A DNA stretch of 64,000 bases from Candidatus Rokuibacteriota bacterium (GTDB lineage: Bacteria > Methylomirabilota > Methylomirabilia > Rokubacteriales > CSP1-6). The DNA lies in the NCBI GenBank assembly GCA_003221695.1, contig QHSX01000061.1, forward strand, positions 1 through 64,000. Direction: 5' to 3'. The notes beneath the pieces were generated by a model. It was not told the DNA's origin, did no database searches, and was given only the letters and a program-made list of their open reading frames with translations. Of the stretch, positions 31,137-59,174 are shown piece after piece. Every line of letters starts with the position of its first letter. The first letter of the stretch is position 1. The position numbers and the translations under genes are program-made.

Positions 31137-32131
31137 CCGCCCCGATCCTGGAGGCCCGGGACCTCACCAAGCACTTCCCGGTCAAGCGCGGTCTCCTCGG
31201 ACGCGGGGCCGGCGTCGTGCGCGCCGTGGACGGGGTCTCGTTCGCGATCGAGCCCGGCCGGACCCTCGGCGTCGTCGGTGAGTCTGGGTGCGGCAAGACG
31301 ACGACCGCGAAGCTCGTGCTGCATCTCGAAGCGCCCACGTCGGGCGCGATCCGCTTCGAGGGCCGGGACTTCCAGGCGTTCGACGCGGACGCGCTGCGCG
31401 CGTACCGCCGATCCGTGCAGGCCGTCTTCCAGGACCCCTACGCCTCGCTCAATCCGCGGATGCGCGTCGGCTCGATCATCGCGGAGCCCCTCGTCACAAA
31501 CGAATCGCTGCCGGCCGGCGCCGCGCGGACGCGGGTCGCCCGCCTCCTCGAGGTGGTCGGCCTGCCGGCGCGCGCCGCCGACCTCTTTCCCCACGAGTTC
31601 TCGGGCGGGCAGCGGCAGCGGATCGCGATCGCGCGGGCGCTCGCGCTCGAGCCGAAGCTCGTCGTGCTCGACGAGCCGGTGTCGGCTCTGGACGTCTCGA
31701 TCCGCGCCCAGATCCTGAACCTGCTCCGCGACCTCCAGAGCCGGCTCGGCCTGTCGTACCTCTTCATCGCGCACGACCTCGCGGCCGTCGCCCACATGAG
31801 CCACACGATCGCGGTGATGTACCTCGGGAAGATCGTCGAGATCGGCCCCGCCGAGACCGTCGCCGCCTCACCCCGGCACCCCTACACCCAGGCGCTCTTC
31901 TCGGCGGCGCTGCCGTCCCACCCCGACGAGAAGCGGGACGAGGTCGTCGTGACGGGCGAGGTGCCGAGCCCGCTCGCGCCGCCGAGCGGCTGCCGCTTCC
32001 ACCCGCGCTGCCCTCACGCGATGGCACGGTGCTCGACCGAGGAACCCGCCCTCGGTCCCGAGGCGAGGCGCCTCGTCGCCTGCCACCTCTACACGGGCGT
32101 CCGGGTCAGCGTCGGAGCCGCAGCACGTTGA
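31133..32131 (+). CDS. DppF-like ABC ATPase
   Basis: 332 residues. Walker A GESGCGKTT, signature EFSGGQRQRIAIARALALEP, Walker B LVVLDEPVSALD, and C-terminal FHPRCPHAMARC cluster. Completes the importer. Its last 26 bases overlap the end of the convergent receiver-cyclase gene, so the two operons meet tail to tail with no terminator space. Confidence 0.94.
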   Translation: MTAPILEARDLTKHFPVKRGLLGRGAGVVRAVDGVSFAIEPGRTLGVVGESGCGKTTTAKLVLHLEAPTSGAIRFEGRDFQAFDADALRAYRRSVQAVFQDPYASLNPRMRVGSIIAEPLVTNESLPAGAARTRVARLLEVVGLPARAADLFPHEFSGGQRQRIAIARALALEPKLVVLDEPVSALDVSIRAQILNLLRDLQSRLGLSYLFIAHDLAAVAHMSHTIAVMYLGKIVEIGPAETVAASPRHPYTQALFSAALPSHPDEKRDEVVVTGEVPSPLAPPSGCRFHPRCPHAMARCSTEEPALGPEARRLVACHLYTGVRVSVGAAAR

Positions 32132-33200
32132 AGGCCGGCACGGACTTCGAGAAGCCCTTGAGCGTGAGGCCCCCGAGCTCTTCGACCTCGACCGAGTCGT
32201 CGACCGCACCATACACGCGCTGGGCGATCAGGATCTGGCCGGGCTTCGCCTCGCCGCACAACCGGGCCGCGAGGTTGGTGACGGTACCGATCGCGCCATA
32301 GTCCAGGCGCCCCTCGAAGCCGATCGCGCCGATCGTGGCGTATCCCTGGGCCACCCCGACGCCGAAGTCGAGGTCGTAGCCACGTTTCTTCCACTTCACG
32401 AGGAGCTCGTCCACCCGCCCACGCATCGCGACCGCCATCCGCACCGCGCGTGCGGGAGCGTCCGGGACGGGCACCGGATCGTTGAAGAAGATCATCATGC
32501 CGTCGCCGGTGAAGCGCTCGAGCGTGCCCTCGTGCTCGAGGATCAGGGCGCCCATCTCGGCGTGGTACTCACGCAGCACCCCCATGACCTCCTCGGGCTC
32601 CGAGGTCTCGGCGAACGACGTGAAGCCGCGGAGGTCGAGGAAGACGACGGTGATCTCGCGGCGGTGACTCTTCAGGGGATCCTCGGCGTCGCCGCTCACG
32701 ATCATTTCGGCGAGCTGAGGCGAGAAGAAGCGCTTGAGCCGCTCCAGGCGCTCGAGCTGGGCGACCTGCACCTCGACCCGCTGCTCGAGCGTCCGGTTCC
32801 ACTCTGCGAGCTCGTCGTGGAGCAGCTTGATCCGGAGGAGCGACCTCACACGCGCGAGCAGCTCCTGCTGATTGATCGGCTTGGAGAGGAAGTCGTCGGC
32901 GCCCGCGTCGATCCCCTTCACCCGTTCCTGCGCCGGATCGAGCGCCGTCACCATGACGACGGGCAGCGTCGCCGTGGCCGGGTTCGTGCGGATCTTGCGG
33001 CAGACCTCGTAGCCGCTCATCTCGGGCATGACGACGTCGAGCAGCACCAGGTCCGGGGTTTCTTTCGGGACCTTTTCGAGCGCCTGGACGCCGGAGGACG
33101 CCGTGACGACCGCGTAGCCCTTGGCCGTCAGCAGATCGGCCAGCAGCTTGACGTTCTGCGGCGTGTCGTCGACGACGAGGATCTTCGCCGGCGCGCTCAT
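32106..33200 (-). CDS. Response regulator with class III adenylate/guanylate cyclase output
   Basis: 364 residues: receiver domain 1-125 with phospho-acceptor Asp55 in LVLLDVVMPEMSG and acidic pocket VVDD; a helical linker; cyclase domain ~185-364 with metal Asp in TVVFLDLRGFTSF and ERFTGDGMMIFF, the base-specifying Asp region RLDYGAIG and transition-state Asn/Arg in TVTNLAARL. Probably makes cAMP when phosphorylated. Last gene of the ten-gene sensory operon; ATG overlaps the end of the small receiver gene by 4 bases. Likely partner of the two upstream histidine kinases. Confidence 0.92.
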   Translation of the reverse strand: MSAPAKILVVDDTPQNVKLLADLLTAKGYAVVTASSGVQALEKVPKETPDLVLLDVVMPEMSGYEVCRKIRTNPATATLPVVMVTALDPAQERVKGIDAGADDFLSKPINQQELLARVRSLLRIKLLHDELAEWNRTLEQRVEVQVAQLERLERLKRFFSPQLAEMIVSGDAEDPLKSHRREITVVFLDLRGFTSFAETSEPEEVMGVLREYHAEMGALILEHEGTLERFTGDGMMIFFNDPVPVPDAPARAVRMAVAMRGRVDELLVKWKKRGYDLDFGVGVAQGYATIGAIGFEGRLDYGAIGTVTNLAARLCGEAKPGQILIAQRVYGAVDDSVEVEELGGLTLKGFSKSVPAFNVLRLRR

Positions 33201-33555
33201 TTCCGGTCGAGCATCGCGCGGACCGCCTCGAGGAAGTCCTTCACCCTGATCGGCTTCGACTGGTAGCCGTCGAAGCCCGCGGCCATGATCTTCTGACGGT
33301 CGTGCGTCATGGCCGACGCCGTCACCGCGATGACCGGGATCGCGCGGGTCGACGCATCGGCGCGCAACTGGCCGAGCGCGGTGATGCCGTTCATTCCCGG
33401 GAGCTGGATGTCCATGAGGACGAGTGCCGGATGGCGTTCCTTGGCCAGACGCACGCCGTCCTCTCCGTTCGAGGCCTCGACGGTCTGGTAGCCTTTGAAC
33501 TGGAGGACGTCGCGCACGAGCTTCAGGTTCTTCTCGTTGTCCTCGACGATCAGGA

Positions 33556-33571
<16 letters not shown>
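33197..33571 (-). CDS. CheY-like single-domain response regulator
   Basis: 124 residues. ILIVEDNEKNLKLVRDVL gives the acidic pocket, Asp54 in LVLMDIQLPGMNG is the phosphorylation site, and Lys in YQSKPI the conserved lysine. No output domain, so it acts by protein contact or as a phosphate shuttle between the kinases and the receiver-cyclase. It overlaps the kinase end by 16 bases. Confidence 0.92.
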
Positions 33572-35063
<1,492 letters not shown>

Positions 35064-35067
<4 letters not shown>

Positions 35068-35672
35068 GGCCGCCCCATCTCCCGCAGCAGACTCTGCACG
35101 TCTCCGAGCAGCTCGTCGGGGTCGAACCGCACTCCCAGGTACTGTACGCGGAGGACCCCGTCCCTGTCGATAAGCGAGGTGAGGAACGTGTGGTCCACGT
35201 CCCCGTGCGGGTTCTTCCGAGCGTAGACTCCGTACCGCCTCTCGACGTCCTGGATCTCGGCCGCCGAGCCCGTCAGGAACGCCCAGCCCGCCGGATTCGC
35301 GCCGTGGGCCCGGGCGTAGCGCCTGAGAACCTCGGGCGTGTCGCGCTCGGGATCGACCGTCACCGACGCGAAGAACACCCGCGGGCCGAACTCAGGGCCG
35401 AGCTTGGCCTGGAGCGCAGCCATTTTCGCCGTCAGGAGCGGGCACGTGTCGGCGCAGCTCGCATAGACGAAGGTGACCGCGACGACCTTTCCGCGGAGGT
35501 CCCGGAGCGAGAGGCGCGCACCGTCCTGAGTCGTCAGCGCGAACTCCGGCGCCGGCCCGATCCTCGAGAGGCGCGCGTCCCCCCTGGCCTCATGGCCCGC
35601 GACGCGCGCGGCTGCGGCGCAGATCGCGAGGGCGACGAGCGCCGCCACGCTCCACGGTCTCAGACGGCTCAC
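35064..35672 (-). CDS. SCO1/SenC-family copper-thiol protein
   Basis: 202 residues with an N-terminal signal or anchor (VAALVALAICAAAARVAG). Thioredoxin fold with the SCO copper site: the CxxxC motif in YASCADTCPLLTAKM and the distal His in DVDHTFLTSLID. Known SCO proteins deliver copper to the Cu-A site of cytochrome oxidase or reduce its cysteines. Here it is not beside oxidase genes but between four cysteine-bearing binding proteins and a histidine kinase, which suggests a role in metal or thiol handling for those proteins (inference). Confidence 0.92.
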
Positions 35673-35703: not shown

Positions 35704-36702
35704 TCAGCCCTTCAGCTCCTTCTTGAGCTCTGTGAGGAAGCGCCAGTTCGTCGACTGAGCGATGATCTTCTGCGGGCTCGACTTGATCATCCCCGCCTCG
35801 TGGAGGCGGAGCGCGTAGAAGCGGATCGTGTCCTCGGGGTCGTACGCCCGCCACTTGCCGTACGGGACATCCTTCATCGCCTGGAGCGCGTACTCGTACT
35901 GCTTGATGTAGCCCTTGTCCACGAGAACCCGCGCCACCCGTTCCGGCTCGCGGGCGCACAGGTCGGCCGCCTTCAAGATGGCGCGCAGCGCGCGCTTGGT
36001 GGCGACGGGATACTTGCGCACGAACTCGCGGGTGCCCGTCACCACGCAGCAGAAGTATTGAGACCAGGGCCGGTCCACCGCGCTGTTGACCACCACGTGT
36101 CCGACGTTCCTCGCCCGCAGTTCCTGCGGGCTCGGCGGAAACGCCAGGAAGGCGTCGATCAGCCCCTCCTCGAGAAACCGCATCGACTCGGACGGCGGGA
36201 ACCTCGCCCAGTTGATGTCCTTGCCGGGGTCCAGCCCGACGTACGCCACCATGCTCGAGAGAAAGATGTGCTCGGGGCCTCCCAGCCACGCCACGGCGAC
36301 GATCTTTCCCTTCAGGTCGCGGATGGCACGGACTCGATCACCCCCGAGCAGCTCGAAGCACCCGACGTGCGCGCCCGCCAGAAACACGATCGGGTCCCCC
36401 TGCGCCACACGGATGAGGTTGGGCCCGACGAAGTTCATGCTGATGTCGGCGTCGCCCGCGGCGAGGGCTTCCGAGATGACACCCCCCGCGAGCTTGGCGT
36501 ACTGCACGTCGGTGAAGCCTTCGTCTCTCAGCAGCGTGTCGGCAACGTATTGGGGCGCCCAGCAGATGCTGGAGCTCTGGATCAGCCGGAGTCTCGTCGT
36601 CTCGGGCGGCGGCTCGGCGGCGGCCGCGTCGGGGCGCAGTCCCAGGCACCCCGCGGTCCCCGCCACGGCGACTTGTCGAAGGAACTCTCGCCGGCTGCGC
36701 AT
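35704..36702 (-). CDS. Tat-exported NMT1/THI5-like binding protein, paralogue 1
   Basis: 332 residues. Twin-arginine signal SRREFLRQVAVAGTAG, then the NMT1/THI5-type periplasmic-binding fold: ICWAPQYVADTLL, DADISMNFVGPNLI, IRDLKGKIVAV, and a long C-terminal helical region RKYPVATKRALRAILKA. Five cysteines are shared with the three paralogues next to it (ICWAPQY, HVGCFEL, SQYFCC, DLCA). Relatives bind pyrimidines, taurine, nitrate or sulfonates. No permease or ATPase gene is in the operon. Ends ~31 bases before the SCO1 gene. Confidence 0.9.
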   Translation of the reverse strand: MRSRREFLRQVAVAGTAGCLGLRPDAAAAEPPPETTRLRLIQSSSICWAPQYVADTLLRDEGFTDVQYAKLAGGVISEALAAGDADISMNFVGPNLIRVAQGDPIVFLAGAHVGCFELLGGDRVRAIRDLKGKIVAVAWLGGPEHIFLSSMVAYVGLDPGKDINWARFPPSESMRFLEEGLIDAFLAFPPSPQELRARNVGHVVVNSAVDRPWSQYFCCVVTGTREFVRKYPVATKRALRAILKAADLCAREPERVARVLVDKGYIKQYEYALQAMKDVPYGKWRAYDPEDTIRFYALRLHEAGMIKSSPQKIIAQSTNWRFLTELKKELKG

Positions 36703-36710
36703 AGATCCTC

Positions 36711-37724
36711 CTACCCCTTGAGCTCCTTCTTCAGCTCGTTGAGGAAGCGCCAGTCCGTGCCGTCGGCAATCAGCTTCTGTGGGCTGCCCTTCACCATCCC
36801 GGCTTCCCGCAGGCGGAGCGCGTAGAAGCGCACGGTCTCCTCGGGGTTGTACTCCCGCCAGCGGCCGAACGGGATCTCCGTCATCGCCTGGCGAACATAT
36901 GCCGGCGCGCCTGGGAAGCCCCGGTCCGCAAATGCCCGCGCGCCCCGGCCCGGCTCCACGGCGCAGAGCTGATCGCCCTTGAGGATGGCGCGGAGGGCGC
37001 GCTTGGTCGCCACGGGGTGTCTGCGAACGAACTCGCGGTTGGCCGAGACCAGGCAGCAGAAGTACTGGGACCAGGGGCGGTCGACGGCGCTGTTGAGCAG
37101 GACCCGCCCGATCTTCCTGGCCCGCAGCTCCTGAGGGTCGGGCGGGAACCCGAGAAAGCCGTCGATCTTTCCCTCCGCCAGAAGCCGCTTGGCCTCGGCC
37201 GGTGGGTGCTCCAGCCACGTGATGTCCCGGTTGGGATCGAGCCCGACTTGGCTGACGATGCTGGCGATGAAGGTGTGCTGGGGAGAATTCCGCTGGGGGA
37301 CGGCGACGGTCTTGCCCTTCAGGTCGCTGATCGTCCGCACCCGCTCGCTCCCGAACAGCTCGAAGCACCCGACGTGCACGCCGCCCAGGAGTACGATCGG
37401 CTCTCCCGCGTCGAGGGAGACGACCAGCGGCGCAGCGAAGTTCATGGCGACGTCGACCTCACCGGCGCCCATCGCCTTGGCGAGGGGGATGCCGCCGACT
37501 CCCGCCCCCTTCTCGCCGACGTAGCGGACATCGGTGAACCCCTCGGATGTCAAAAACTCCTCGGCCACGTACTGGGGCGCCACACAGACGCTGGGTACCT
37601 TCGACAGGCGGATCCGGGTCGTCTCCGGTGGCGGCTCGGCAGCCCCCGCCCGTGATCTCAAGCCGAGCAGACCGGCTGCGCCCCCGTACGCCAATCCGCG
37701 CAGGAACGCCCGCCGTGTGGTCAT
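36711..37724 (-). CDS. Tat-exported NMT1/THI5-like binding protein, paralogue 2
   Basis: 337 residues, Tat signal TTRRAFLRGLAYGGAAG. Same fold and shared cysteines (SVCVAPQY, HVGCFELFG, SQYFCCLV, QLCA) as its neighbours, but the ligand-contact regions differ (MNFAAPLVVSLDAGEP and QRNSPQHTF in place of FVGPNLIRV and LGGPEHIF), so a different ligand is likely. It shows a longer and rearranged segment ADRGFPGAPAYVRQA near the C-terminus. It begins inside the ATGA overlap with paralogue 3. Confidence 0.9.
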   Translation of the reverse strand: MTTRRAFLRGLAYGGAAGLLGLRSRAGAAEPPPETTRIRLSKVPSVCVAPQYVAEEFLTSEGFTDVRYVGEKGAGVGGIPLAKAMGAGEVDVAMNFAAPLVVSLDAGEPIVLLGGVHVGCFELFGSERVRTISDLKGKTVAVPQRNSPQHTFIASIVSQVGLDPNRDITWLEHPPAEAKRLLAEGKIDGFLGFPPDPQELRARKIGRVLLNSAVDRPWSQYFCCLVSANREFVRRHPVATKRALRAILKGDQLCAVEPGRGARAFADRGFPGAPAYVRQAMTEIPFGRWREYNPEETVRFYALRLREAGMVKGSPQKLIADGTDWRFLNELKKELKG

Positions 37725-38716
37725 CCCTTCAGCTCCTTCTTCAGCTCGTTGAGGAAGCGCCAGTCGGTGGACTGGGCGATGATCTTCTGCGGGCTCGACT
37801 TGATCATCCCGGCCTCGTGGAGGCGCAGGGAGTAAAACCGGATCGTGTCTTCGGGGTCGTAGTCCCGCCACTTGGCGTACGTGATCTCCTTCATCGTCTG
37901 GAGGGCGTAGGCGTAGTTGTACCCTTTGTCGGCCACCAGCCGAGCGGCCCGGTCGGGCTCAACGGCACAGAGGTTGGCCGCCTTCAAGATCGCGCGGAGC
38001 GCCCGCTTGGTCGCCACCGGGTGCTTGCGGACAAACTCGCGATTCGAGGCGACGATGCAGCAGAAGTACTGGGACCAGGGCCGGTCCACCCCGCTGTTGA
38101 CGATGACGTGGCCGATCTTCCTCGCCCGCAGCTCTTGGGCCGCCGGCGGAAAGGCCATCAGTGCGTCGATCTTGCGCGCTTCGAGCAGACGTATCGTCTC
38201 GCCCACCGGATACGTCACGAAGTTGATGTCCTTGCCCGGATCGAGGCCGACGTGGGCCGCCATGCTCGCGAGGAACACGTGGTGGGGCGATCCGAGCTCG
38301 GGCACCGCCACGGTCTTCCCCTTGAGATCGCGAACCGCCCGGACCCGGTCCGTCCCGAACAGCTCGTAACAGCCGACGTGCACCCCCCCGAGAAGCACGA
38401 TCGGGAGCCCTGCATCCACCTGAATAATGAACGGTGCGACGAAGGCCATGCTGATGTCGACGTTGCCCGAGGCGATCTCCCCGTACGGCGTGACACCCAC
38501 CTTGAGGTTCACGTACTGGACGTCGCTGAACCCCTCGGTCTTGAGCAGCTCCTCGGCGACGTATTGCGGCGCCACACAGACGCCGGCGATCTGAACCAGC
38601 CTGATCCTGGTCGTCTCCGGTGCCGACTCGCCCTCCGCCTGGCGAGGGTGCAGGTCGAGGACACTCGCGGCCCCCAGGAGACTCAGTCCCTGGACGAAGG
38701 CGCGTCGGTGGATCAT
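37721..38716 (-). CDS. Tat-exported NMT1/THI5-like binding protein, paralogue 3
   Basis: 331 residues, Tat-like signal IHRRAFVQGLSLLGAAS (Arg-Arg kept, Phe-Val after). Shared cysteines GVCVAPQY, HVGCYELFG, SQYFCCIV, NLCA. The pocket segment reads MAFVAPFIIQVDAGLP. Overlaps both neighbours by four bases, so the four paralogues are translationally coupled and probably made in fixed ratio. Confidence 0.9.
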   Translation of the reverse strand: MIHRRAFVQGLSLLGAASVLDLHPRQAEGESAPETTRIRLVQIAGVCVAPQYVAEELLKTEGFSDVQYVNLKVGVTPYGEIASGNVDISMAFVAPFIIQVDAGLPIVLLGGVHVGCYELFGTDRVRAVRDLKGKTVAVPELGSPHHVFLASMAAHVGLDPGKDINFVTYPVGETIRLLEARKIDALMAFPPAAQELRARKIGHVIVNSGVDRPWSQYFCCIVASNREFVRKHPVATKRALRAILKAANLCAVEPDRAARLVADKGYNYAYALQTMKEITYAKWRDYDPEDTIRFYSLRLHEAGMIKSSPQKIIAQSTDWRFLNELKKELKG

Positions 38717-39753
38717 GTGTTCAGCTCCTTCTTCAGCTCGTTGAGGAATCGCCAATCGGTCGCCTGGGCGAGGATCTTCTGCGGACTCGCCTTGATCATG
38801 CCGGCCTCGTGCAGGCGCAGCGCGTAGAACCGGAGCGTGTCCTCCGGGTCGTACTCGCGCCACTTCCCGTACGGCAGCTCCTTCATGACCTGGAGCGCGT
38901 ACTCGTAGCGCGGCGTGTAGCCCTTGTCCACGAGGGCACGCGCGGCGCGTTGCGGATCGAGTGCGCAGAGGTCGGCGGCCTTCACGATCGCGCGGAGCGC
39001 CCGCTTGGTCGCGACGGGGTGCCTGAGCACGAACGCCTTGCTCGCCGTCAGGAGACAGCAGAAGTACTGAGACCACGGGCGGTCGGCCGCGCTGTTGACC
39101 AGCACGTGCCCGATCTTCTGCGCCCGCAGCTCCTGGGGCTGCGGCGGGAAGCCGAGGAAGGCGTCCGCCTTTCCCTCGGTGAAGAGGCGCATCGACTCCT
39201 CGATGGGAGGGAGGCGGCGAGCGCCGGCGAGCTCGGGACGCGCAGACTCGGGCGTGATCCACCTGATGTCCCGGCGCGGGTCGAGGCCCACATGCGCGAC
39301 GATGGTGGCGAAGAAGGTGTGCGGCGAGCCGCTCAGCGAATCGACGACGGCGGTCTTGCCTTTCAGATCACGGATCCGCTGGACCCGGTCGCTTCCGAAG
39401 ACCTCGAAGCAGCCCACGTGGACCCCGGCGAGGAACACCACCGGATCGCCCGCGTCCACTCGGATGATGTTGGGCCCGACGAAGTTCAGGCTCATGTCGG
39501 CCTCGCCGGCGGCGAGTCGTACCGAGACTGCCCCGGTCGCCATCTCGACGTACGTGATGTCGGTGAAGCCCTCGGCCCGCAGCAGATCGTCGGCGATGTA
39601 CTGCGGCGCCCAGCAGATGCTGGGCGCCCGGAGCAGTCGGAGCCGCGTGGTCTCCGGCGGGGGCTCGGCGGCGACGGGTAGGGGGCGCACCCCCAAGAAT
39701 GTCGCCGCGCCTGCGAGCGTGATCCGGTTCAGGAACTCTCTGCGGCTGGGCAT
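38713..39753 (-). CDS. Tat-exported NMT1/THI5-like binding protein, paralogue 4
   Basis: 346 residues, Tat signal SRREFLNRITLAGAAT. Shared cysteines SICWAPQY, HVGCFEVFG, SQYFCCLL, DLCA. It carries an insertion of about 15 residues around TPESARPELAGARRLPP relative to the others. First of the four paralogues, starting 18 bases after the Cache histidine kinase gene ends, so receptor and kinase are cotranscribed. Confidence 0.9.
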   Translation of the reverse strand: MPSRREFLNRITLAGAATFLGVRPLPVAAEPPPETTRLRLLRAPSICWAPQYIADDLLRAEGFTDITYVEMATGAVSVRLAAGEADMSLNFVGPNIIRVDAGDPVVFLAGVHVGCFEVFGSDRVQRIRDLKGKTAVVDSLSGSPHTFFATIVAHVGLDPRRDIRWITPESARPELAGARRLPPIEESMRLFTEGKADAFLGFPPQPQELRAQKIGHVLVNSAADRPWSQYFCCLLTASKAFVLRHPVATKRALRAIVKAADLCALDPQRAARALVDKGYTPRYEYALQVMKELPYGKWREYDPEDTLRFYALRLHEAGMIKASPQKILAQATDWRFLNELKKELNT

Positions 39754-39771: not shown

Positions 39772-42663
39772 TCATTTGTCACGCTTCAGCGGGAGCGTGA
39801 AGGTGAACGTGGAGCCCTGGCGGACCTGGCTCTTCACCCAGATCTTGCCGCCGTGCAGCTCGACGAACTTCCGCGAGAGCGTCAGCCCGAGGCCCGTGCC
39901 CTCGTGCTTCTTCGCGTAATCGGTCCCGACCTGACGGAACTCCTCGAAGACGGCCTCCTGATCCTCGAACGCGATGCCCACGCCGGTGTCGCTCACCGCG
40001 ATTTCGGCGACGCCGTTCGCGGCGGCGGCGCGAACCTCGACCCGTCCGCCCTCGGGAGTGAACTTGATCGCGTTCGCCAGGAGGTTGAGGAGGACCTGCT
40101 TGACCTTCCGCTCGTCTCCACGAAGAGCGCCGAGTCGGTCGTCGACCGCGACCTCGAGCGTGATCCCACGGCGCATGGCGCGCTCGCGCACGAGGGTGAC
40201 CGCGTTGTCGATCGCCTGCGGCAGATGGAAGTCGGCGAGCTCCAGCTCCATCCGACCCGCCTCGATCTTCGAGAGGTCGAGGATGTCGTTGATCAGGGAG
40301 AGCAGGTGGCGGCCGGAGGCGAGAATGTCTTGTAGATACTCTTCCTGCTTCGCGTTGACCTCGCCGAACATCCGCTCGATCAGCACTTCGGAGAAGCCGA
40401 TCACCGCGTTGAGCGGTGTCCGGAGCTCGTGCGACATGTTGGCGAGGAACTCCGACTTGTGCCGGTCGGCGACCTCCAGCTGGCGGCTCTTTTCCTCCAG
40501 CTCCTGGAACAGGCGCGCGTTCTCCAGCGCGAGGGCGGACTGGGTCGCGAAGGTCCTGAGGAGCTCGACCACCTCGGCGGGGAACTCGCCGGGCGCCTTC
40601 CGATTCAGCGAGAGGCTCCCGATAATCTGGCCCTCGCGGAGGAGGGGGACGGAGAGGAGCGCACGGTAGCCGGCCCTGAGCAGGATGTCGCGGAGCCGAC
40701 TCTGGTAGACGCCCGGCGCGGCGATGTCCGAGATCTGGATCGGCTCGCGGGTCTCTGCGGCGCGACCCATGACGCCCTCGCCCTTCCGGAGCGGCATCGC
40801 TCGGACGGTCTCGACGAACGTCGCGTCCAGATTGTCGGCCGCGCGCAGGCGAAACTCCTCGACCCCCACATCGTACTCATAGATCGTGCACCCGTCCGCG
40901 CCGGCGAGCTGCCGCGCGCGCGACACGATCGTGTTGAGCACGGTCTCGACATTCAGCGTGGAGCTGACCGCGCGGCTCACCTCGCCGAGCGCCTTCAGCT
41001 CATCGACCGAGCGCACCAGGTCCCGGGTCCGCGCCTCCAGTTCTTGGAACAGGCGCACGTTCTCGATCGCGATGACGGCCTGGTCGGCGAAGGTCTTCAA
41101 CAGCGTGATCTGCTTCTCGGAGAAAGGGCGGGGCTCGCGTCGGCGGACGAGGATGGCGCCGATGGCGGTCCCCTCGCGCATGAGAGGCGTCGCCAGGGTC
41201 GCCCGGTGGCCGAACCGGAGCGCCATCGCCTTGCCCTCTGGGTACTCGGCGTCCGATACCTGCGTGAGATCGGCCACGTGGACCGCCTGGCCGTCGAGCA
41301 CCGCTCGTCCGGTGACCCACGCTCGGCTCAGGCGCTGTCGCTGTCCGACCGGCGCTCCGAGCGGGCCGAAGTGGGCCCGCGGCACCACGTCGTCGCCGTC
41401 GCGGAGCAGAATGGTCGCGTCAAGGGCCTCGCAGAGGCGTGCCGAGCTCTCGGCAACGGCGTCCAGCACGGGCTGGATGTCGGTCGGCGAGCTCGAGATC
41501 GCGCGCAGGATCTCGGCGATTGCCGTCTGCTGCTCGAGCGACTTGCTGAGCTCGCGCGTGCGCTCCTCGACCTTGCCCTCGAGGGTCGCGTACGACTCCT
41601 GGAGCTGGGCGGTCATGCTGTTGAACTGCGTGGCGAGCGCCTCCAGCTCGTCGCCCGTCTTGATCTCGATCCGGTGGCCGAGCTCGCCCGCGCCGATCCG
41701 CGCCGCCCCCGCCTGGAGAGTCTGGACGGGCGTCACCATCCGTCGCGCGAGAAAGAGGCTCGCGACCACGGCGAGGGCGACGCCGAGCAGCAGGAGGATC
41801 ACCGTCCGGATCGCCGAGGCGTAGAGCGGCGCGAAGGCCTCGCCCAGCGGCTGCTCGACGAAGACCGACCAGCCGAGCGGCGCGATCGTCGCGAAGGCGG
41901 TGAGCACCGGTCGACGCTCGCGGTCGTGAGCGATCGTCACCGTCTCGGCGTCGGCCAGGGCGGCCGGCGCCGCGCGAGCCTGTCGCACCTGGGGCAGCGC
42001 GGCGAGGTCCGTCTTCTGGAGCACGAGGCTGATATCGGGATGCGCGATGAGCTGGCCGCGAGAGTCCACGACGTAGGCGTGGCCCGCCTTCCCGCTCTTG
42101 ATCTGCGAGACGACGTCCCAGATGAACTTCAGATTCACCTCGGCGACGGTCACGCCGGCCTTCGGGCCGCCGCCGAGGGCGATCGTCATGTACGGCTCGG
42201 ATTCTTTGCGGAAGTAAACCGGGCCGTGGAAGGCTCGGCCGGCCTTCGGCACGAGGAACTTCGGCTCGCGCGAAAAGTCCGTCCCGCTGCCGACCACGTC
42301 CATCGCGAGGCGCGAGACGCGAAGCTGCTCGCGGCCGCCGGGATCGAGGTAGCTCAGCTCGGTGATGGCCGGAGCCTGGCGCTGGAGTCGAAGGTAGTCG
42401 ACGCGACGCTGATCCATCCGCGTGGCCGGCGGGCCGAGCACGGGCTGCGTGGTCCAGCCCATCTGGCGCTCGATCTCCCTGATGAACTGCTCGATCGTCG
42501 AGGCGGCCGCCAGGGCCTTCTCCCGCTGGACGCCGAGGAGCGCCGCCTTGTTCTCCTGGTACGAGAAGTAGATCTCCACCACGCCACTCACGAGCAGCGC
42601 CCCGCTTACGAGGAGCGTGATCAGAGCGACATACTTACCGAAGAGGCGTCCGTGGCGGATCAC
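39772..42663 (-). CDS. Cache-HAMP-GAF-GAF histidine kinase
   Basis: 963 residues. TM1 ~12-33; periplasmic double-Cache ligand-binding region ~35-285 (with VYFRKESEPYMTIALGG and GHAYVVDSRGQLIAHPD); TM2 ~288-310; HAMP ~310-362; GAF ~395-535; GAF ~565-715; HisKA with FLANMSHELRTPLNAVIGFS; HATPase with NLLANAIKFTPEGG and GTGLGLTLS. It senses a periplasmic small molecule directly or through a binding protein and a cytoplasmic signal through the GAFs. Sits between a PF04392 binding-protein gene and the four Tat-exported binding proteins in one operon. Confidence 0.93.
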   Translation of the reverse strand: MIRHGRLFGKYVALITLLVSGALLVSGVVEIYFSYQENKAALLGVQREKALAAASTIEQFIREIERQMGWTTQPVLGPPATRMDQRRVDYLRLQRQAPAITELSYLDPGGREQLRVSRLAMDVVGSGTDFSREPKFLVPKAGRAFHGPVYFRKESEPYMTIALGGGPKAGVTVAEVNLKFIWDVVSQIKSGKAGHAYVVDSRGQLIAHPDISLVLQKTDLAALPQVRQARAAPAALADAETVTIAHDRERRPVLTAFATIAPLGWSVFVEQPLGEAFAPLYASAIRTVILLLLGVALAVVASLFLARRMVTPVQTLQAGAARIGAGELGHRIEIKTGDELEALATQFNSMTAQLQESYATLEGKVEERTRELSKSLEQQTAIAEILRAISSSPTDIQPVLDAVAESSARLCEALDATILLRDGDDVVPRAHFGPLGAPVGQRQRLSRAWVTGRAVLDGQAVHVADLTQVSDAEYPEGKAMALRFGHRATLATPLMREGTAIGAILVRRREPRPFSEKQITLLKTFADQAVIAIENVRLFQELEARTRDLVRSVDELKALGEVSRAVSSTLNVETVLNTIVSRARQLAGADGCTIYEYDVGVEEFRLRAADNLDATFVETVRAMPLRKGEGVMGRAAETREPIQISDIAAPGVYQSRLRDILLRAGYRALLSVPLLREGQIIGSLSLNRKAPGEFPAEVVELLRTFATQSALALENARLFQELEEKSRQLEVADRHKSEFLANMSHELRTPLNAVIGFSEVLIERMFGEVNAKQEEYLQDILASGRHLLSLINDILDLSKIEAGRMELELADFHLPQAIDNAVTLVRERAMRRGITLEVAVDDRLGALRGDERKVKQVLLNLLANAIKFTPEGGRVEVRAAAANGVAEIAVSDTGVGIAFEDQEAVFEEFRQVGTDYAKKHEGTGLGLTLSRKFVELHGGKIWVKSQVRQGSTFTFTLPLKRDK

Positions 42664-42678
42664 GTGGCGCTCACCGCA

Positions 42679-43662
42679 TCACTCGACGATGCGGTCCGCG
42701 CGCGTGAGTAGCTCGGTCGGCACCTGGAGGCCCAGGGCGGCCGCGGTCCCCTTGTTGATCGCGAGGACGAGCTTCCGGGCCCCCTCGACCGGGAGCTGCT
42801 GGGCTTTGGCGCCCTTGAGGATCTTGGCGACGATGCCGGCGGCCTGGATCCCTTCCGCGTACGGGTCCGAGCCGTAGGCGGCGAGCGCGCCCTGCTGGAT
42901 CCACAGCGCAGTCGGGAAGACGGCGGGGATCTTCCGCGCGCGCGACAGCTCGAGCATCCGTCCCGGGATCGCGAGCGAGCCGAGGTCCGGCGGCAAGAGA
43001 CCGTCGCCGGGACGGAGCTCCTGCATCGCGCGCTCCACGTCCGCGGGGTCGCGCACCGCACGATCCAGCACGGCGACCTTGAACTGGGTCGCCACGGCCT
43101 TCGCCTTCTCCGCGGCGGCGCGGGACGCGGCGTCGTCGGGCTGATAGACGGAAAGTACGCGGCCGACATTCGGCGCCAGCGCTTTGAGGATCTCGAGGCG
43201 CTTCGGCACCAGGTCGGTCGTGAGGCTCGACACGCCCGTGAGGTTGCCGTCGGGCTTCGCGAGGTCCCTGACGAGGCCCGCGGCGACCGGGTCGGGCACG
43301 GCGGTGAAGACGATCGGGATCGTGAGCGTGGCGGCCTTCGCGGCCCGTGCGGCGGCGTCGCCGTTGGCGAAGATGAGGTCCACCCCGGCCTTTGCGAGCT
43401 CCTCCGCCGCTCTCGACAGGGCCCTGACGTCGCCGCGCGTGAAGCGGACGTCGAAGCTCACGTCGTCCTCCTGAAGCCCGAGCTCCTTGAGCCCGGCCCG
43501 GAGCCCCTCGACCATCGGAGAGTTCGCGGCGAGCGTCGTGTTGACGACCCCGATGCGAAAGCGCTTCGCCGGCTGGGCGAGCGCGTCGTCGGGCAGGACC
43601 GATGTCGCACCGAGAAGCAGCAGGACAACGGCGGGTAGTCCAGTTCGGGTCAGCAGGCTCAT
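42679..43662 (-). CDS. PF04392-type (ABC_sub_bind, TrpX-like) binding protein
   Basis: 327 residues from the ATG at 43662; the frame is open to 43701, but MSLLTRTGLPAVVLLLLGAT is a normal Sec signal start and lies six bases after an extended -10. The mature part begins FRIGVVNTTLAANSPMVEGL; IPIVFTAVPDPVAAGLV and GNLTGVSSLTTDL are family signatures, and the C-terminus ends LLTRADRIVE. The family binds tryptophan, tyrosine or related ligands in characterised cases. It is the first gene of the sensory operon and the only intact member of a local group of four. Confidence 0.9.
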   Translation of the reverse strand: MSLLTRTGLPAVVLLLLGATSVLPDDALAQPAKRFRIGVVNTTLAANSPMVEGLRAGLKELGLQEDDVSFDVRFTRGDVRALSRAAEELAKAGVDLIFANGDAAARAAKAATLTIPIVFTAVPDPVAAGLVRDLAKPDGNLTGVSSLTTDLVPKRLEILKALAPNVGRVLSVYQPDDAASRAAAEKAKAVATQFKVAVLDRAVRDPADVERAMQELRPGDGLLPPDLGSLAIPGRMLELSRARKIPAVFPTALWIQQGALAAYGSDPYAEGIQAAGIVAKILKGAKAQQLPVEGARKLVLAINKGTAAALGLQVPTELLTRADRIVE

Positions 43663-43668
43663 GGCGAG

Positions 43669-43677
43669 AAGATAGCA
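43669..43677 (-). promoter_or_regulatory. Extended -10, likely promoter of the ten-gene sensory operon
   Basis: Minus-strand TGC TATCTT, six bases before the ATG at 43662. No ribosome-binding site lies between, so the operon message is probably leaderless. Same geometry as the epimerase, Phd and zinc-ribbon genes. Confidence 0.45.
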
Positions 43678-43776
43678 CGGGCAGATCAATTCCGGATTCA
43701 CGACCGTGGGGAGATTCGTGACGGAGGTCCGATTAGGCGTCGCTCGTCACTCGATCGCCTTATCGGTACCGCTCCA

Positions 43777-43956
43777 CTATTCGATCACCTGGTCGGCACG
43801 TATCAACAGCGACTGGCGGATCGTGAGCCCGAGGGCCCGGGCGGTCTTCATGTTGATGACGAACTCGTACCGGATCGGCTGTTCCAGAGGAAGCTCCGCC
43901 ATCAGGCCGGACGTCGTCCAAAGCGCGAGCACGCAGAGGAACGTTCGCCGGTTCAT
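43777..43956 (-). pseudogene. PF04392 remnant: signal peptide fused to C-terminal tail
   Basis: 59-codon frame. Residues 1-20 ([20 protein letters not shown]) are the export signal and 23-59 the family's extreme C-terminus ([20 protein letters not shown] then LIRADQVIE). Roughly 250 residues in between are missing in frame, so it cannot form the binding fold. Its start overlaps the stop of the next remnant by four bases. Probably a deletion remnant, though the frame is intact and could still be translated. Confidence 0.75.
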
Positions 43957-44710
43957 TCGATGAGCTGATCCGCTCGCACCAGCAGCGACTGCGGGATCGT
44001 CAGCCCCATGGCCTTCGCGGTCTTGAGATTGATCACCAATTCGAACTTCGTGGCCTGCTGGTACGGCAGCTCGCCTGGATGTGCTCCCTCAAATATCCGG
44101 GCGATGTAGCCCGCCGCGCCGCGATAGAGCTCTGCGATCTCTGTCGAGTACGCCATGAGGCCACCGGACTCCACAAACTCCCGCCAAGGATACACTGCGG
44201 CCAGTTGAGCCTGCTTGGCCAGCTCGACAATGACCCGGCGATGCGTGAAGTTCTCGACCGCATCGACGACGAGGAACGCCTTCACGCGCTCACGAACCAT
44301 CAAGCCGAACGCCCGCCGATACTCCGGCTCCTGGATGGGGTCGCCGAGCGGCGCCTCAACGAGTGTCAGCCCGGCCTGCTGGGCGGCCTCGCGCATCACC
44401 CAGCCGGACGGCCCCTGGCTTGAGCTGGACCACCTCGCGGGCGAGATCGCCGTAGCGCCCCGTATGCCCTCCTCACTAAGCGCCGCTCCACCACGAGGTT
44501 CCTCCCTTCCGCGTAACCGAGGCGACGCAGCTCGGAGAAGAGCGCCTTGTAAAAACGGGGGCCCTTTTCCTCGGTCAGGTCGGCGACAGGCGTCGAGGGG
44601 TGCACGAACGCGATCCGGTACATCTTCCCCGCCTGCTGCGCGTCTGCGGCGAGTGGCGCGGACAGCGTCCCCATCGTTAGCCCGCAGAGGAACGTGCGCC
44701 TGTCCATCAT
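43953..44710 (-). pseudogene. PF04392 binding-protein pseudogene (deletion and frameshift)
   Basis: N-terminal part (from MDRRTFLCGLTMGTLSAPLA through RIAFVHPSTP to GYAEGRNLVVERR) is followed by a frameshift near 44485; GRYGDLAREVVQLKPG continues in another frame. The part that should carry the first half of the binding fold is then missing (about 110 residues), and the C-terminal piece (VKAFLVVDAVENFTHRRVIV to [10 protein letters not shown]) is in yet another frame. Overlaps the third copy by ATGA. No functional protein is expected. Confidence 0.8.
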
Positions 44711-45710
44711 TCGATCACCTGATCCGCCCTGAACAGCAGCGACTGCGGGATCGTGAGGCCGAGCGCCTTTGCGGTCTTGAGGTTGATCACGAGCTCGACC
44801 TTTTCTGGCTCCTCCACCGGAAGGTCCGATGGCTTGGCGCCGTTCAGAATCTTCCCGACCAACGCGCCGGCGCGCCGGAAGTCTGCGGTCGCGCTTGCTC
44901 CGTATGCCATGAGACCGCCAGCGAGGGCGAAGTCAGGTCGCCACCCGATCATCGGGAGTCGATGCTGCAGGGCGAGTTCTCCTAGTTGGACGTGCGCTAT
45001 AAAGAAGGTGCTGTCGGGCAGCAAAAGCACGCCCTGGGCGCGATTCCGCACCATTTCATGAAACACCCCTGCGAAATCTTGCGGGCGGCGCGCCTCGAAC
45101 ACCTGAGACTGTAGACCGAGCGCACGGGCGGAATCGAGACTAACGTGCAGATGATGGGCAAAAGGCAATGGGTTCGACAGAATGGCTATCCGGGAAAGCT
45201 TCGGGACGGCCTCCATGAGGAAGCTCAGTCGTTTCCGGTTAGCTGCGTCCCTGTGTGCGTGAGACCCGTCATATTGCCGCCAGGGCGTGAAAGGCTGACG
45301 ACGAACTGGCTCGCCACCGGGTCGGCTGAGCCACTGAACACAATGGGAATCGTCCGGGTCGCCTGCTTGGCGGCCACGGCTGCCTGGTCGCTGGGAGTGA
45401 AGATGGCATCGACACCAAGACGCACAAGGTCTGCCGCCAACTCCGGTAACCGCTCGTATCGATGCTCCGCCCATCTCCACTCGATCGTCAGGTTCTGGCC
45501 TTCGACGTAACCAAGTTCGCGGAGCCCTTCTCGAAAGGCCTCGTTGAGAGACGGAACGCCGGGCGCCGGACCGGACGCCAAAAGACCCACACGCACGCTT
45601 TTCCCGGTAGGCTTCGCACCACTCTGCTGCTGCGCCTCGACGGCGAGCGGCACGGCGAGCAGGTTCGCGACAAGGGCGAGGGCGAGGATCAGCGGCGTTC
45701 TCCGCCCCAT
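44707..45710 (-). pseudogene. PF04392 binding protein with single frameshift
   Basis: Full-length copy split by one frameshift near 45225-45245. The 5' part (signal to VEAQQQSG, then VRVGLLASGP, IPIVFSGSADPVASQFVV, GGNMTGLTHTGTQLTG) ends at a TGA; the 3' part continues one frame off from KRLSFLMEAVPKLSRIAIL to LLFRADQVIE. Restoring one base in the short A-run CGGAAACG would rejoin them, so this is either a young pseudogene or an assembly error. Lower GC than the core operons. Confidence 0.8.
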
Positions 45711-57198: not shown

Positions 57199-57648
57199 TC
57201 ACGGCTCGCCTCGTGACGAGACGTCACTCGGCTCGCCCTGCCAGGCCGCGCGCGCCAGCATGGTGGCGGTGAGCGCGGCGACGAGCGCCATGAGCCAGGC
57301 GCCGAGGGGGCTCGGCGGCACTCCGCCGCCGAAGGCCGGCATGCGCGTCGACTCGGCGCCGACGAGCGCCAGGCGCGCGACGTACAGCGCCCGGATCGCG
57401 ACGAGCACGGCGAGGATGCGCGTGCAGTCGCGCCGCGAGAGCACCCAGCGCTCGAACCATCGACGCCGGCGGTAGAGGAGCGGGGGGACGCCCACGGCGA
57501 TCAGTGCGCCGACGCCGAACCAGACGAGCGGCCGGCCGCGCACGGGAAAGACCGCGAGTTGGAGATAGAGCGCGGTGAGCCAGTAGACGATGCCGTATCC
57601 GAGGTACGTCCACGCGGCCTGCCGGAATCGCCGCTCGATGGCGGTCAC
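57199..57648 (-). CDS. Small polytopic membrane protein
   Basis: 149 residues from the GTG that overlaps the radical SAM stop. About four membrane helices: YLGYGIVYWLTALYLQLAVF, LVWFGVGALIAVGVPPLLY, ILAVLVAIRALYVARLALVG and LGAWLMALVAALTATMLARA. No known family. Coupling to the radical SAM gene suggests a linked function at the membrane. Confidence 0.6.
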   Translation of the reverse strand: MTAIERRFRQAAWTYLGYGIVYWLTALYLQLAVFPVRGRPLVWFGVGALIAVGVPPLLYRRRRWFERWVLSRRDCTRILAVLVAIRALYVARLALVGAESTRMPAFGGGVPPSPLGAWLMALVAALTATMLARAAWQGEPSDVSSRGEP

Positions 57649-59030
57649 GGGGAGGACGGCCGGAAGCGACCGCCCCACGTCGCCCGGACCTCGGCCAGAA
57701 GCTCCCGGGTCACGACCGCCTGGCCGCGGCCCCGCGCGTACGCCTCGACCGCCCTGACCACCATTCCGCGGGCGAACGACGGAATCGCCTGGAGCCGCTC
57801 GCGCGCGTCAGGATCCCACGCGAGCTCCCAGGTCACCGGCAGCCCGAACGTGACCGTCGGCGGCAGCTCGACGACCGCGCCGCCGTGGGCACCGGGCGTG
57901 TAGCCACACGCGGGATCCTCGGCGAGGTAGTCGCCATACGTGGCGTAGGCGCGGCATCGGCAGCCGCCGCAGATCTTCGAGAACTCGCACGCCCCGCAGC
58001 GTCCGCCGAGCTTCGGGTCGCGCAGGTCGTCGAAGACCGGCGCCCCGCGCCAGAGCTCGGCGAAGCTCGCGCTCCTGAGATTCCCCGCCGACACCGGCAT
58101 GTAGGGGCATGGCGTCACGTCGCCCTCGGGCGTGATCCGACAGTAGTACTTGCCCGCGGGGCACGAGCCGTGGGCGTAGTTCTGGAGCAGCGGCGACGAT
58201 GGGTTCAGCTGCCAGAGAATTCGCCGGAAATGCGGGGCGCATTTGGCGCGGATGAGCAGCCCGTCCGTGCGGACGACGGGCGCCGACCACGGATCCTCGA
58301 ACCCGGCGGTCGCCGGGCCGCGGACGCCCTGCGCCGTCGCCAGGAACGTCAGGATCCTCTCGTAGGCCGCGGCGTCGATGTCGGTGAGGTCCCGCCCCCG
58401 CCCCGTCCGCACGAGGAAGAAGAGGTTCAGGACCTTGGCCCCGAGCTCCTTCGCGAGGTCGATCATCGCGGGGATCTCGCCGACGTTCCAGTCTGTCACC
58501 GACATGTGCAGGGAGAAATCGAGGCCGGCGTCGCTCAGCACCCGCGTGGCGCGCACGGCGCCGTCCCAGGCGCCCGGCAGATGGCGGAACGCGTCGTGCT
58601 TGACGCGGTCGGTGGAGTCGAGGCTGATCGACGCGCCGAGGATCCCGTGCGCGCGCATGCGCCGCGCCTCGCGGTCGCCCAGCAGCACGCCGTTGGTGCC
58701 GAGGACCGTCGTGAACCGCTTCTCGGCGGCGTACGCGGCGATCTCCCAGAGGTCGCGGCGCAGGAGGGGCTCGCCGCCGGTGAGGATCAGGAAGACGTTC
58801 GGGTTGACCTGCGCGATCTCGTCGAGCACGCGCCGGCACTCGTCGGTGGTGAGTTCTCCCCGCGTGTCGGCGCCGGCGAACGCCGACATGTAGCAGTGCG
58901 CGCACTCGAGGTTACACCGCTGGGTCAGGTTCCACGACACGCTGTACGCCGTGTACGGAGCCGCCCCGCCGCCCGGCGTGGGCGTGGACGACGACGCCGG
59001 GTGATGCGCGGGGGTCTCAGGGTGCATCAC
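57645..59030 (-). CDS. Radical SAM/SPASM protein with C-terminal PCP_red-like domain
   Basis: 461 residues. The SAM cluster motif is CNLECAHC (C-x3-C-x2-C) after SWNLTQR; ILTGGEPLLRRDLWEIAAYA follows. The SPASM region holds CRITPEGDVTPCPYMP and CGACEFSKICGGCRCRAY, binding extra Fe-S clusters. The last ~60 residues (WDPDARERLQAIPSFARGMV, then VEAYARGRGQAVVTRELLAE) resemble the PCP_red domain of light-independent protochlorophyllide reductase. Overall resembles heme d1/alternative heme maturases (NirJ, AhbC/D) and peptide-modifying enzymes. Uses SAM radicals on a tetrapyrrole or peptide. Confidence 0.87.
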   Translation of the reverse strand: MMHPETPAHHPASSSTPTPGGGAAPYTAYSVSWNLTQRCNLECAHCYMSAFAGADTRGELTTDECRRVLDEIAQVNPNVFLILTGGEPLLRRDLWEIAAYAAEKRFTTVLGTNGVLLGDREARRMRAHGILGASISLDSTDRVKHDAFRHLPGAWDGAVRATRVLSDAGLDFSLHMSVTDWNVGEIPAMIDLAKELGAKVLNLFFLVRTGRGRDLTDIDAAAYERILTFLATAQGVRGPATAGFEDPWSAPVVRTDGLLIRAKCAPHFRRILWQLNPSSPLLQNYAHGSCPAGKYYCRITPEGDVTPCPYMPVSAGNLRSASFAELWRGAPVFDDLRDPKLGGRCGACEFSKICGGCRCRAYATYGDYLAEDPACGYTPGAHGGAVVELPPTVTFGLPVTWELAWDPDARERLQAIPSFARGMVVRAVEAYARGRGQAVVTRELLAEVRATWGGRFRPSSP

Positions 59031-59043
59031 GACCGAAACCGCG

Positions 59044-59174
59044 TAGGCGCGGGGGGATGGGGGAGGCTCCGGAGTCCGTTGTAGTCAGGGTTGACCTCAC
59101 ACGGCGTCGTTGACAGGCTCGCGATGCGCCTTGGAGCAGTCGGATTCCGGAGCCTCCCCCACCCCCCGCGCCTA
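59044..59174. repeat. 131-bp element with ~33-bp imperfect inverted repeats
   Basis: Arms at 59044-59077 and 59142-59174: TAGGCGCGGGGGG...TGGGGGAGGCTCCGGA and its reverse complement differ by one inserted A and one A/G substitution, and weaker similarity continues outwards (AAACC next to both ends). The 64-base middle has two TTGAC repeats. It fills the gap between the USP fusion and the radical SAM gene, and the right arm includes the stop codon of the USP gene. Could be a MITE-like insertion or a large mRNA hairpin. Confidence 0.75.

Follow-up and report, generated by a model that had tools for sequence, protein, structure and literature searches.

In the TorT-TorS, LuxP-LuxQ and CuaD-type systems, a periplasmic substrate-binding protein (SBP) is encoded beside a membrane histidine kinase and serves it as a co-receptor. 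Two-component systems that sense copper and are associated with periplasmic copper proteins, such as CopRS/CusRS and CinRS-CinA, are known as well. Of 11 characterised SBP-kinase pairs, 10 are gene neighbours (quoted in PMC11113362). Here we describe an operon of comparable layout in a 64,000-nucleotide stretch of DNA from a Candidatus Rokuibacteriota bacterium (contig QHSX01000061.1 of assembly GCA_003221695.1, positions 1 to 64,000; hereafter the window), in which four tandem SBP genes of the NMT1 type are followed by genes for a SCO1 protein, a histidine kinase, a single-domain response regulator and a receiver fused to a nucleotide cyclase. We consider it rather likely that these SBPs are periplasmic sensory co-receptors of the adjacent kinase, with a cysteine- and histidine-bearing cleft for a metal or a thiol-reactive ligand, and not subunits of a transporter.

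The locus departs from TorT-TorS and its counterparts in several respects: the SBP is NMT1/SsuA-like, its predicted cleft is of a Cys4-His kind, it occurs in one to seven tandem copies, and it is accompanied by SCO1 and by a receiver-cyclase output. Literature searches, which extended to open-licence papers only and did not cover preprints, yielded no account of an SBP-SCO1-kinase-cyclase operon.

The operon and its conserved neighbourhood

The genes concerned are the following.

38713-39753, minus strand: SBP1, a Tat-signal NMT1-type binding protein and first of the tandem (open reading frame, Pfam NMT1_2/NMT1, twin-arginine motif, five cysteine columns)
37721-38716, minus strand: SBP2, of the same NMT1-type family (open reading frame, Pfam, twin-arginine motif, cysteine columns)
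36711-37724, minus strand: SBP3, of the same NMT1-type family (open reading frame, Pfam, twin-arginine motif, cysteine columns)
35704-36702, minus strand: SBP4, of the same NMT1-type family and the numbering reference (open reading frame, Pfam, twin-arginine motif, cysteine columns; mature part modelled)
35064-35672, minus strand: SCO1/SenC periplasmic thiol/copper protein (Pfam SCO1-SenC, E=2e-30)
33556-35067, minus strand: sensor histidine kinase with a periplasmic four-helix bundle, HAMP, HisKA and HATPase domains (Pfam, four-helix model)
33197-33571, minus strand: single-domain response regulator, whose gene overlaps the stop of the kinase (coordinates and translation; response regulator family in 36 loci)
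32106-33200, minus strand: response regulator fused to a class III nucleotide cyclase (Pfam Response_reg and Guanylate_cyc)
39772-42663, minus strand: a further histidine kinase with the architecture dCache-HAMP-GAF-GAF-HisKA-HATPase, located upstream of SBP1 at a distance of 18 bp (Pfam)

The four SBPs, which fill positions 35704-39753, are complete open reading frames and full-length paralogues with 61-68% identity to SBP4; start and stop overlap in ATGA at the SBP1/SBP2 and SBP2/SBP3 junctions, and a gap of a few bases separates SBP3 from SBP4. Their translations carry the twin-arginine motifs of the twin-arginine translocation (Tat) pathway, SRREFL, TRRAFL, HRRAFV and SRREFL in SBP1 to SBP4, exactly as reported in an earlier note on this DNA, which had singled out the four tandem genes. 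All four score above the cut-offs of PF13379 (NMT1_2; 43.8-70.9 bits against a gathering score of 24.7) and PF09084 (NMT1). They fall short of the NCBIfam models for the SsuA family (53-85 bits against 163.5), the taurine SBP (at most 36 bits against 304) and SaoX, the last being reached only below its cut-off.

Family and neighbourhood were followed through 74 named loci of several phyla and through same-order relatives, which together gave 195 full-length SBP homologues; gene calls in the related loci were mechanical, and neighbour counts are lower bounds. The genes of the module were counted over the 59 loci whose downstream flank measures 3 kb or more. The conserved order, SBP (one to seven copies), SCO1, kinase, response regulator and receiver-cyclase, is seen in Rokubacteria, rhizobia (Mesorhizobium, Rhizobium, Sinorhizobium), Burkholderiales/Betaproteobacteria, Deltaproteobacteria and Acetobacteraceae, the RefSeq annotation of a complete Sinorhizobium mexicanum plasmid showing the same arrangement, and versions lacking SCO1 occur in Bradyrhizobium and Nitrospirae. 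The kinase was found in 52 of the 59 loci, the cyclase in 39, SCO1 in 33 and a called receiver gene in 30. Median intergenic gaps within the module are near zero or negative, and SBP-SCO1 adjacency, seen in 33 cases, has a median gap of -1. In some Nitrospirae and Desulfobulbaceae loci a sigma-54 NtrC-type regulator stands in the cyclase's place, so that the signalling output varies while SBP and kinase stay constant; a conserved SBP gene next to a membrane kinase is the arrangement of SBP-activated kinase systems.

C73 and C77 (a CxxxC motif) and H161 are conserved in 42 SCO1 homologues, and the SCO1 gene that the earlier note had remarked on as a neighbour is a genuine operon partner. The receiver aspartate and the catalytic metal-binding D189 and D233 are conserved in 44 cyclase homologues, as befits class III cyclases. 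What the note had overlooked is this linkage to two-component and cyclase genes without a transporter: no permease or ATPase of an ATP-binding cassette (ABC) importer is present in the window operon or among the 25 commonest families of 133 flanking proteins, and ABC importer membership, in the sense of being encoded with a transporter, is rejected by the lack of such genes at conserved positions around the 74 loci. The dCache-GAF kinase gene is the probable start of the operon, and a gene of this kind likewise precedes the SBP in certain related Rokubacteria (loci L021, L110, L112 and L115). Among the 133 neighbours are six alpha/beta hydrolases (e.g. L048 12089-12991 and L051 5885-6859), a recurrence that may point to esters or amides as ligands.

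Conserved cysteines, fold and ligand cleft

Five cysteines, C47, C115, C218, C219 and C249 in SBP4 numbering, are aligned in all four paralogues. The earlier description of them as invariant is borne out within the window, and for four of the five it extends to the family: C47, C115, C218 and C219, together with W213, are present in 195 of 195 homologues and H112 in 194, but the cysteine of the LCA motif, C249, in only 182, so that the family-wide fixed set consists of four cysteines, H112 and W213. Loss of these cysteines in close homologues, which the note had named as evidence that would count against it, was not seen among the 195. Columns with at least 10% cysteine number five in the whole alignment, and twin-arginine signals of the kind carried by Tat substrates occur in 191-192 of the homologues. 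Two peptide patterns employed in finding the loci contain these cysteines, a possible source of bias; this bias is ruled out as the cause of the fixed cysteines because 51 family members that match neither pattern retain all four. Pattern-free profile searches of the order and the class gave about 315-660 bits for near-full-length true members and about 60 or less for the next SBPs. As read from the alignment, cysteine conservation is far beyond chance.

AlphaFold2 with the family alignment gave a confident two-lobed fold for the mature part of SBP4 (pLDDT 96, pTM 0.93), with NrtA as its closest structural neighbour (TM 0.83, query-normalised), followed by CmpA, TauA and SsuA and then Thi5. 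The window SBPs share fold, Pfam membership (NMT1_2/NMT1) and pocket topology with NrtA, CmpA, TauA and SsuA, but differ from them in possessing an HxGC motif (H112/C115) and in lying in a signalling operon with no transporter genes. The cysteines were placed by alignment. Using hhalign against TauA, C219 falls on Asp205, C218 on Leu204, W213 on W199 and E117 on Glu106, with C115 two residues before E117 on the same hinge strand; a hand alignment via a shared proline, beyond the hhalign range, pairs C47 with Ser32. (The TauA sequence used agrees with the numbering of PMC6906117 at the residues checked.) The TauA residues Asp205, Glu106, Leu204 and Ser32 belong to the ligand site or line the pocket, Glu106 being an essential hinge residue (PMC6906117). 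By alignment, C47, C218 and C219 would thus occupy pocket positions and C115 the hinge strand, which places the conserved cysteines at the predicted ligand cleft. The most variable columns include pocket-edge positions 41-46, 70-79, 89-98, 138-144 and 167-172, while the Cys/His set is fixed; on this pattern the cleft is a putative constant anchor in variable surroundings.

A PDB search with a single SBP sequence returned nothing useful and a profile was required; the top PDB sequence match of the family profile was THI5 (E=4e-10), which the note had rightly called a distant relative. The CCCFC motif of THI5 binds iron (PMC10512395), and hhalign aligns the C218-C219 pair with it, although a 4-residue gap is needed after the motif (the Thi5 sequence used agrees with the PDB stretches in the profile-search output). 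A THI5-like pyrimidine (HMP-P) synthase is nevertheless rejected on active-site residues, SBP4 carrying Asn and Pro at the positions of Lys62 and His66; the SBPs also differ from THI5 in being exported and in having only two of the motif cysteines.

In a FastTree tree of all 195 homologues, the nearest relative of 146 of 164 tandem copies lies in a different locus; window SBP3, for example, is separated by a distance of 0.11 from the corresponding SBP of a relative and by 0.78 from the closest SBP in its own operon. This rules out recent tandem duplication and makes the tandem copies old, separately maintained lineages, a history that is consistent with a different ligand for each paralogue, as had been suggested from their differing pocket segments.

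Two alternatives carry the most weight. On the first, which we regard as unlikely but by no means negligible, the SBPs would be ordinary ABC components that bind small anions (nitrate, nitrite, cyanate or sulfonates) for a permease and ATPase encoded elsewhere, and the kinase would merely regulate nitrogen or sulfur genes. Their fold and sequence are nearest NrtA, TauA, CmpA and SsuA, and NrtA/CmpA-like transport SBPs of the same order (L100, L102-L104; also L156-L160) combine Tat signals with cysteines at the same pocket positions (motifs IPITCATP and WPGHPCCAF), having equivalents of C47, W213 and C218-C219; they are flanked by permease and ATPase genes and variously by cyanase, nitrite reductase/CysG or AtzE/HpxZ. 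Of the fixed cysteines, three thus recur outside the present family, and these relatives show them to be, by all appearances, compatible with small nitrogen anions. The transport group lacks H112 and C115, however; conserved positions around the present loci are taken by the kinase and not by a permease or ATPase, and it would be strange for a single transporter to be served by one to seven SBPs for each kinase. These relatives also remove one argument of the earlier note, in that Tat export cannot be read as a sign of cofactor loading in the cytoplasm when related transport SBPs are equally twin-arginine-bearing, as is a TrpX-type SBP at 44396 in the window with the Tat-like start MDRRTFL. 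The stretch at 42679-45710 contains several complete or fragmentary genes for ABC_sub_bind (TrpX-like) SBPs, with no transporter genes noted alongside.

The second alternative, of similarly low probability in our judgement, makes the cysteines structural or regulatory disulfides, a thiol redox switch for periplasmic redox sensing with SCO1 as reductase. It draws on the conserved CxxxC of an SCO1 protein encoded directly next to the SBPs, on the vicinal cysteine pair and on Tat export, which would deliver reduced protein. Against this, Bradyrhizobium, Nitrospirae and others without SCO1 retain all four cysteines, three of which align with ligand-pocket residues (PMC6906117), and the variable pocket loops suggest a small-molecule ligand as well.

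The kinase sensor domain and its sister branch

When 60 genomes of the order are compared, 9 have strong matches to both the SBP and the kinase, 1 to the kinase without the SBP, 2 to the SBP without the kinase and 48 to neither (Fisher P=3.6e-8), and the exceptions sit at contig ends or have other module genes. Across phyla the periplasmic domain of the kinase has a mean identity of 58%, against 53% for the kinase core; such high conservation of a sensor domain is unusual for direct small-ligand sensing. The modelled domain has a four-helix topology, and it was used for that topology alone because its confidence was limited (pTM 0.54) and its PDB matches, to NarQ and chemoreceptors, were weak. 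An all-helical periplasmic sensor is a feature shared with TorS, and TorS itself was not among the structural matches listed.

A sister branch of this kinase has no SBP and instead has a cupredoxin-like protein nearby, called at 0-2 kb of the kinase, in 26 of 33 loci and a receiver-cyclase in 22 of 33. The cupredoxin-like genes often overlap genes of the sister-kinase operon or sit 4 bp away, and a copper-type His/Cys/His/Met set is conserved in 27 of 27 of their products. This module of cupredoxin-like CarboxypepD_reg protein, four-helix-bundle kinase, receiver and receiver-cyclase (L121-L123, L125-L153; e.g. L121 6617-11131) is apparently also undescribed. Sensor-domain identity is 58% and 59% within the two kinase branches and 24% between them, and 18 sensor positions fixed in the SBP branch are different in the sister branch; since the divergence follows branch and partner, this is the pattern expected of a sensor domain fitted to its own periplasmic partner. 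Both branches resemble CopRS/CusRS and CinRS-CinA in having a periplasmic copper-type protein next to the kinase, while the window kinase differs in its sensor domain and cyclase output, and its link to copper is a putative one. Elsewhere in the window, a CarboxypepD_reg protein at 61083-62225 matches the cupredoxin-like profile (131 bits) with no kinase adjoining, and at 57645-61073 a radical SAM/SPASM protein and a Usp protein are encoded. PCP_red-type domains occur in each of these two, the Usp protein having three of them together with a rubredoxin-like domain.

The sister branch and the SCO1 partner also lend something to the view that the SBPs act in copper(I) chaperoning or buffering and supply a cuproenzyme via SCO1 while the kinase senses copper on its own. 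We think this improbable: the presence of several divergent paralogues whose pocket loops vary is a better fit to a set of ligands than to one metal, the conserved neighbourhood contains no cuproenzyme among its 25 commonest families (133 neighbours), and SCO1 is not universal. A patchy distribution, a plasmid location in rhizobia and published adjacent but unlinked SBP and kinase genes (PMC11113362) might suggest a mobile cassette in which the SBP genes and the two-component genes are only passengers side by side. This is very improbable given that the genes overlap and keep their order from phylum to phylum, and given co-occurrence and partner-specific sensor divergence.

A proposed sensory role

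Conservation of the operon with kinase and cyclase across phyla, and the absence of a transporter, make the SBPs probable detectors of an undescribed sensing system. What is directly supported here is the operon, its conservation, the folds, the absence of transporter genes and the partner-specific divergence of the sensor; from these we infer contact between SBP and kinase, the nature of the ligand, and cyclic AMP or cyclic GMP as the output, and the sensory role as a whole is moderately supported. The SBPs would be exported folded via Tat, and their two lobes would close around a ligand held in a cleft that bears Cys47, Cys115, Cys218-Cys219 and His112; the variable loops surrounding this cleft would set the specificity of the individual paralogues. 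SCO1 might keep the cysteines reduced, or load or remove copper. A liganded or metallated SBP would then dock on the four-helix periplasmic domain of the kinase (33556-35067) and so alter phosphorylation of the single receiver and of the receiver-cyclase, the latter, as a proposed kinase target, making a cyclic nucleotide signal the likely output.

Several observations weigh against this proposal. Seven of the 59 adequately flanked loci have no kinase of this type nearby, nor do three further SBP-family copies elsewhere in the window's own 4.6-Mb genome assembly; the SBPs could serve a transporter encoded elsewhere. Adjacent SBP and kinase genes for which no interaction was detected have been reported (PMC11113362). 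The recurrence of three of the four cysteines in SBPs of nitrate-, nitrite- or cyanate-type transporters weakens a purely metal-based reading, and a point against copper is that some 40% of the loci have no SCO1.

A metal- or thiol-dependent site is nonetheless the reading we favour. Copper is the favoured candidate ligand, though less likely than not, and for it we count the four fixed cysteines and histidine at the cleft, the intact CxxxC and His of SCO1, the cupredoxin-linked sister kinase and the parallel with THI5. Somewhat more speculative still is a multi-input receptor, in which the tandem SBPs would share a Cys4-His metal anchor, probably for Cu(I), and differ in their loops, each reading a different metal-bound or thiol-reactive compound into one kinase and cyclase, and in which the whole kinase family might read periplasmic copper proteins, either SBPs with SCO1 or a cupredoxin. 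The observation made in the earlier note is accordingly confirmed, and its interpretation is partly supported.

Databases label these genes as ABC-transporter substrate-binding proteins. If they are in truth detectors of a cyclic-nucleotide module that ranges from Rokubacteria to symbiotic rhizobia, that annotation would be wrong for a whole class. The module has culturable carriers in Sinorhizobium, Mesorhizobium and Bradyrhizobium, and its Cys/His cleft, together with the cupredoxin-linked sister module, would then offer a handle on periplasmic copper and thiol sensing in soil bacteria.

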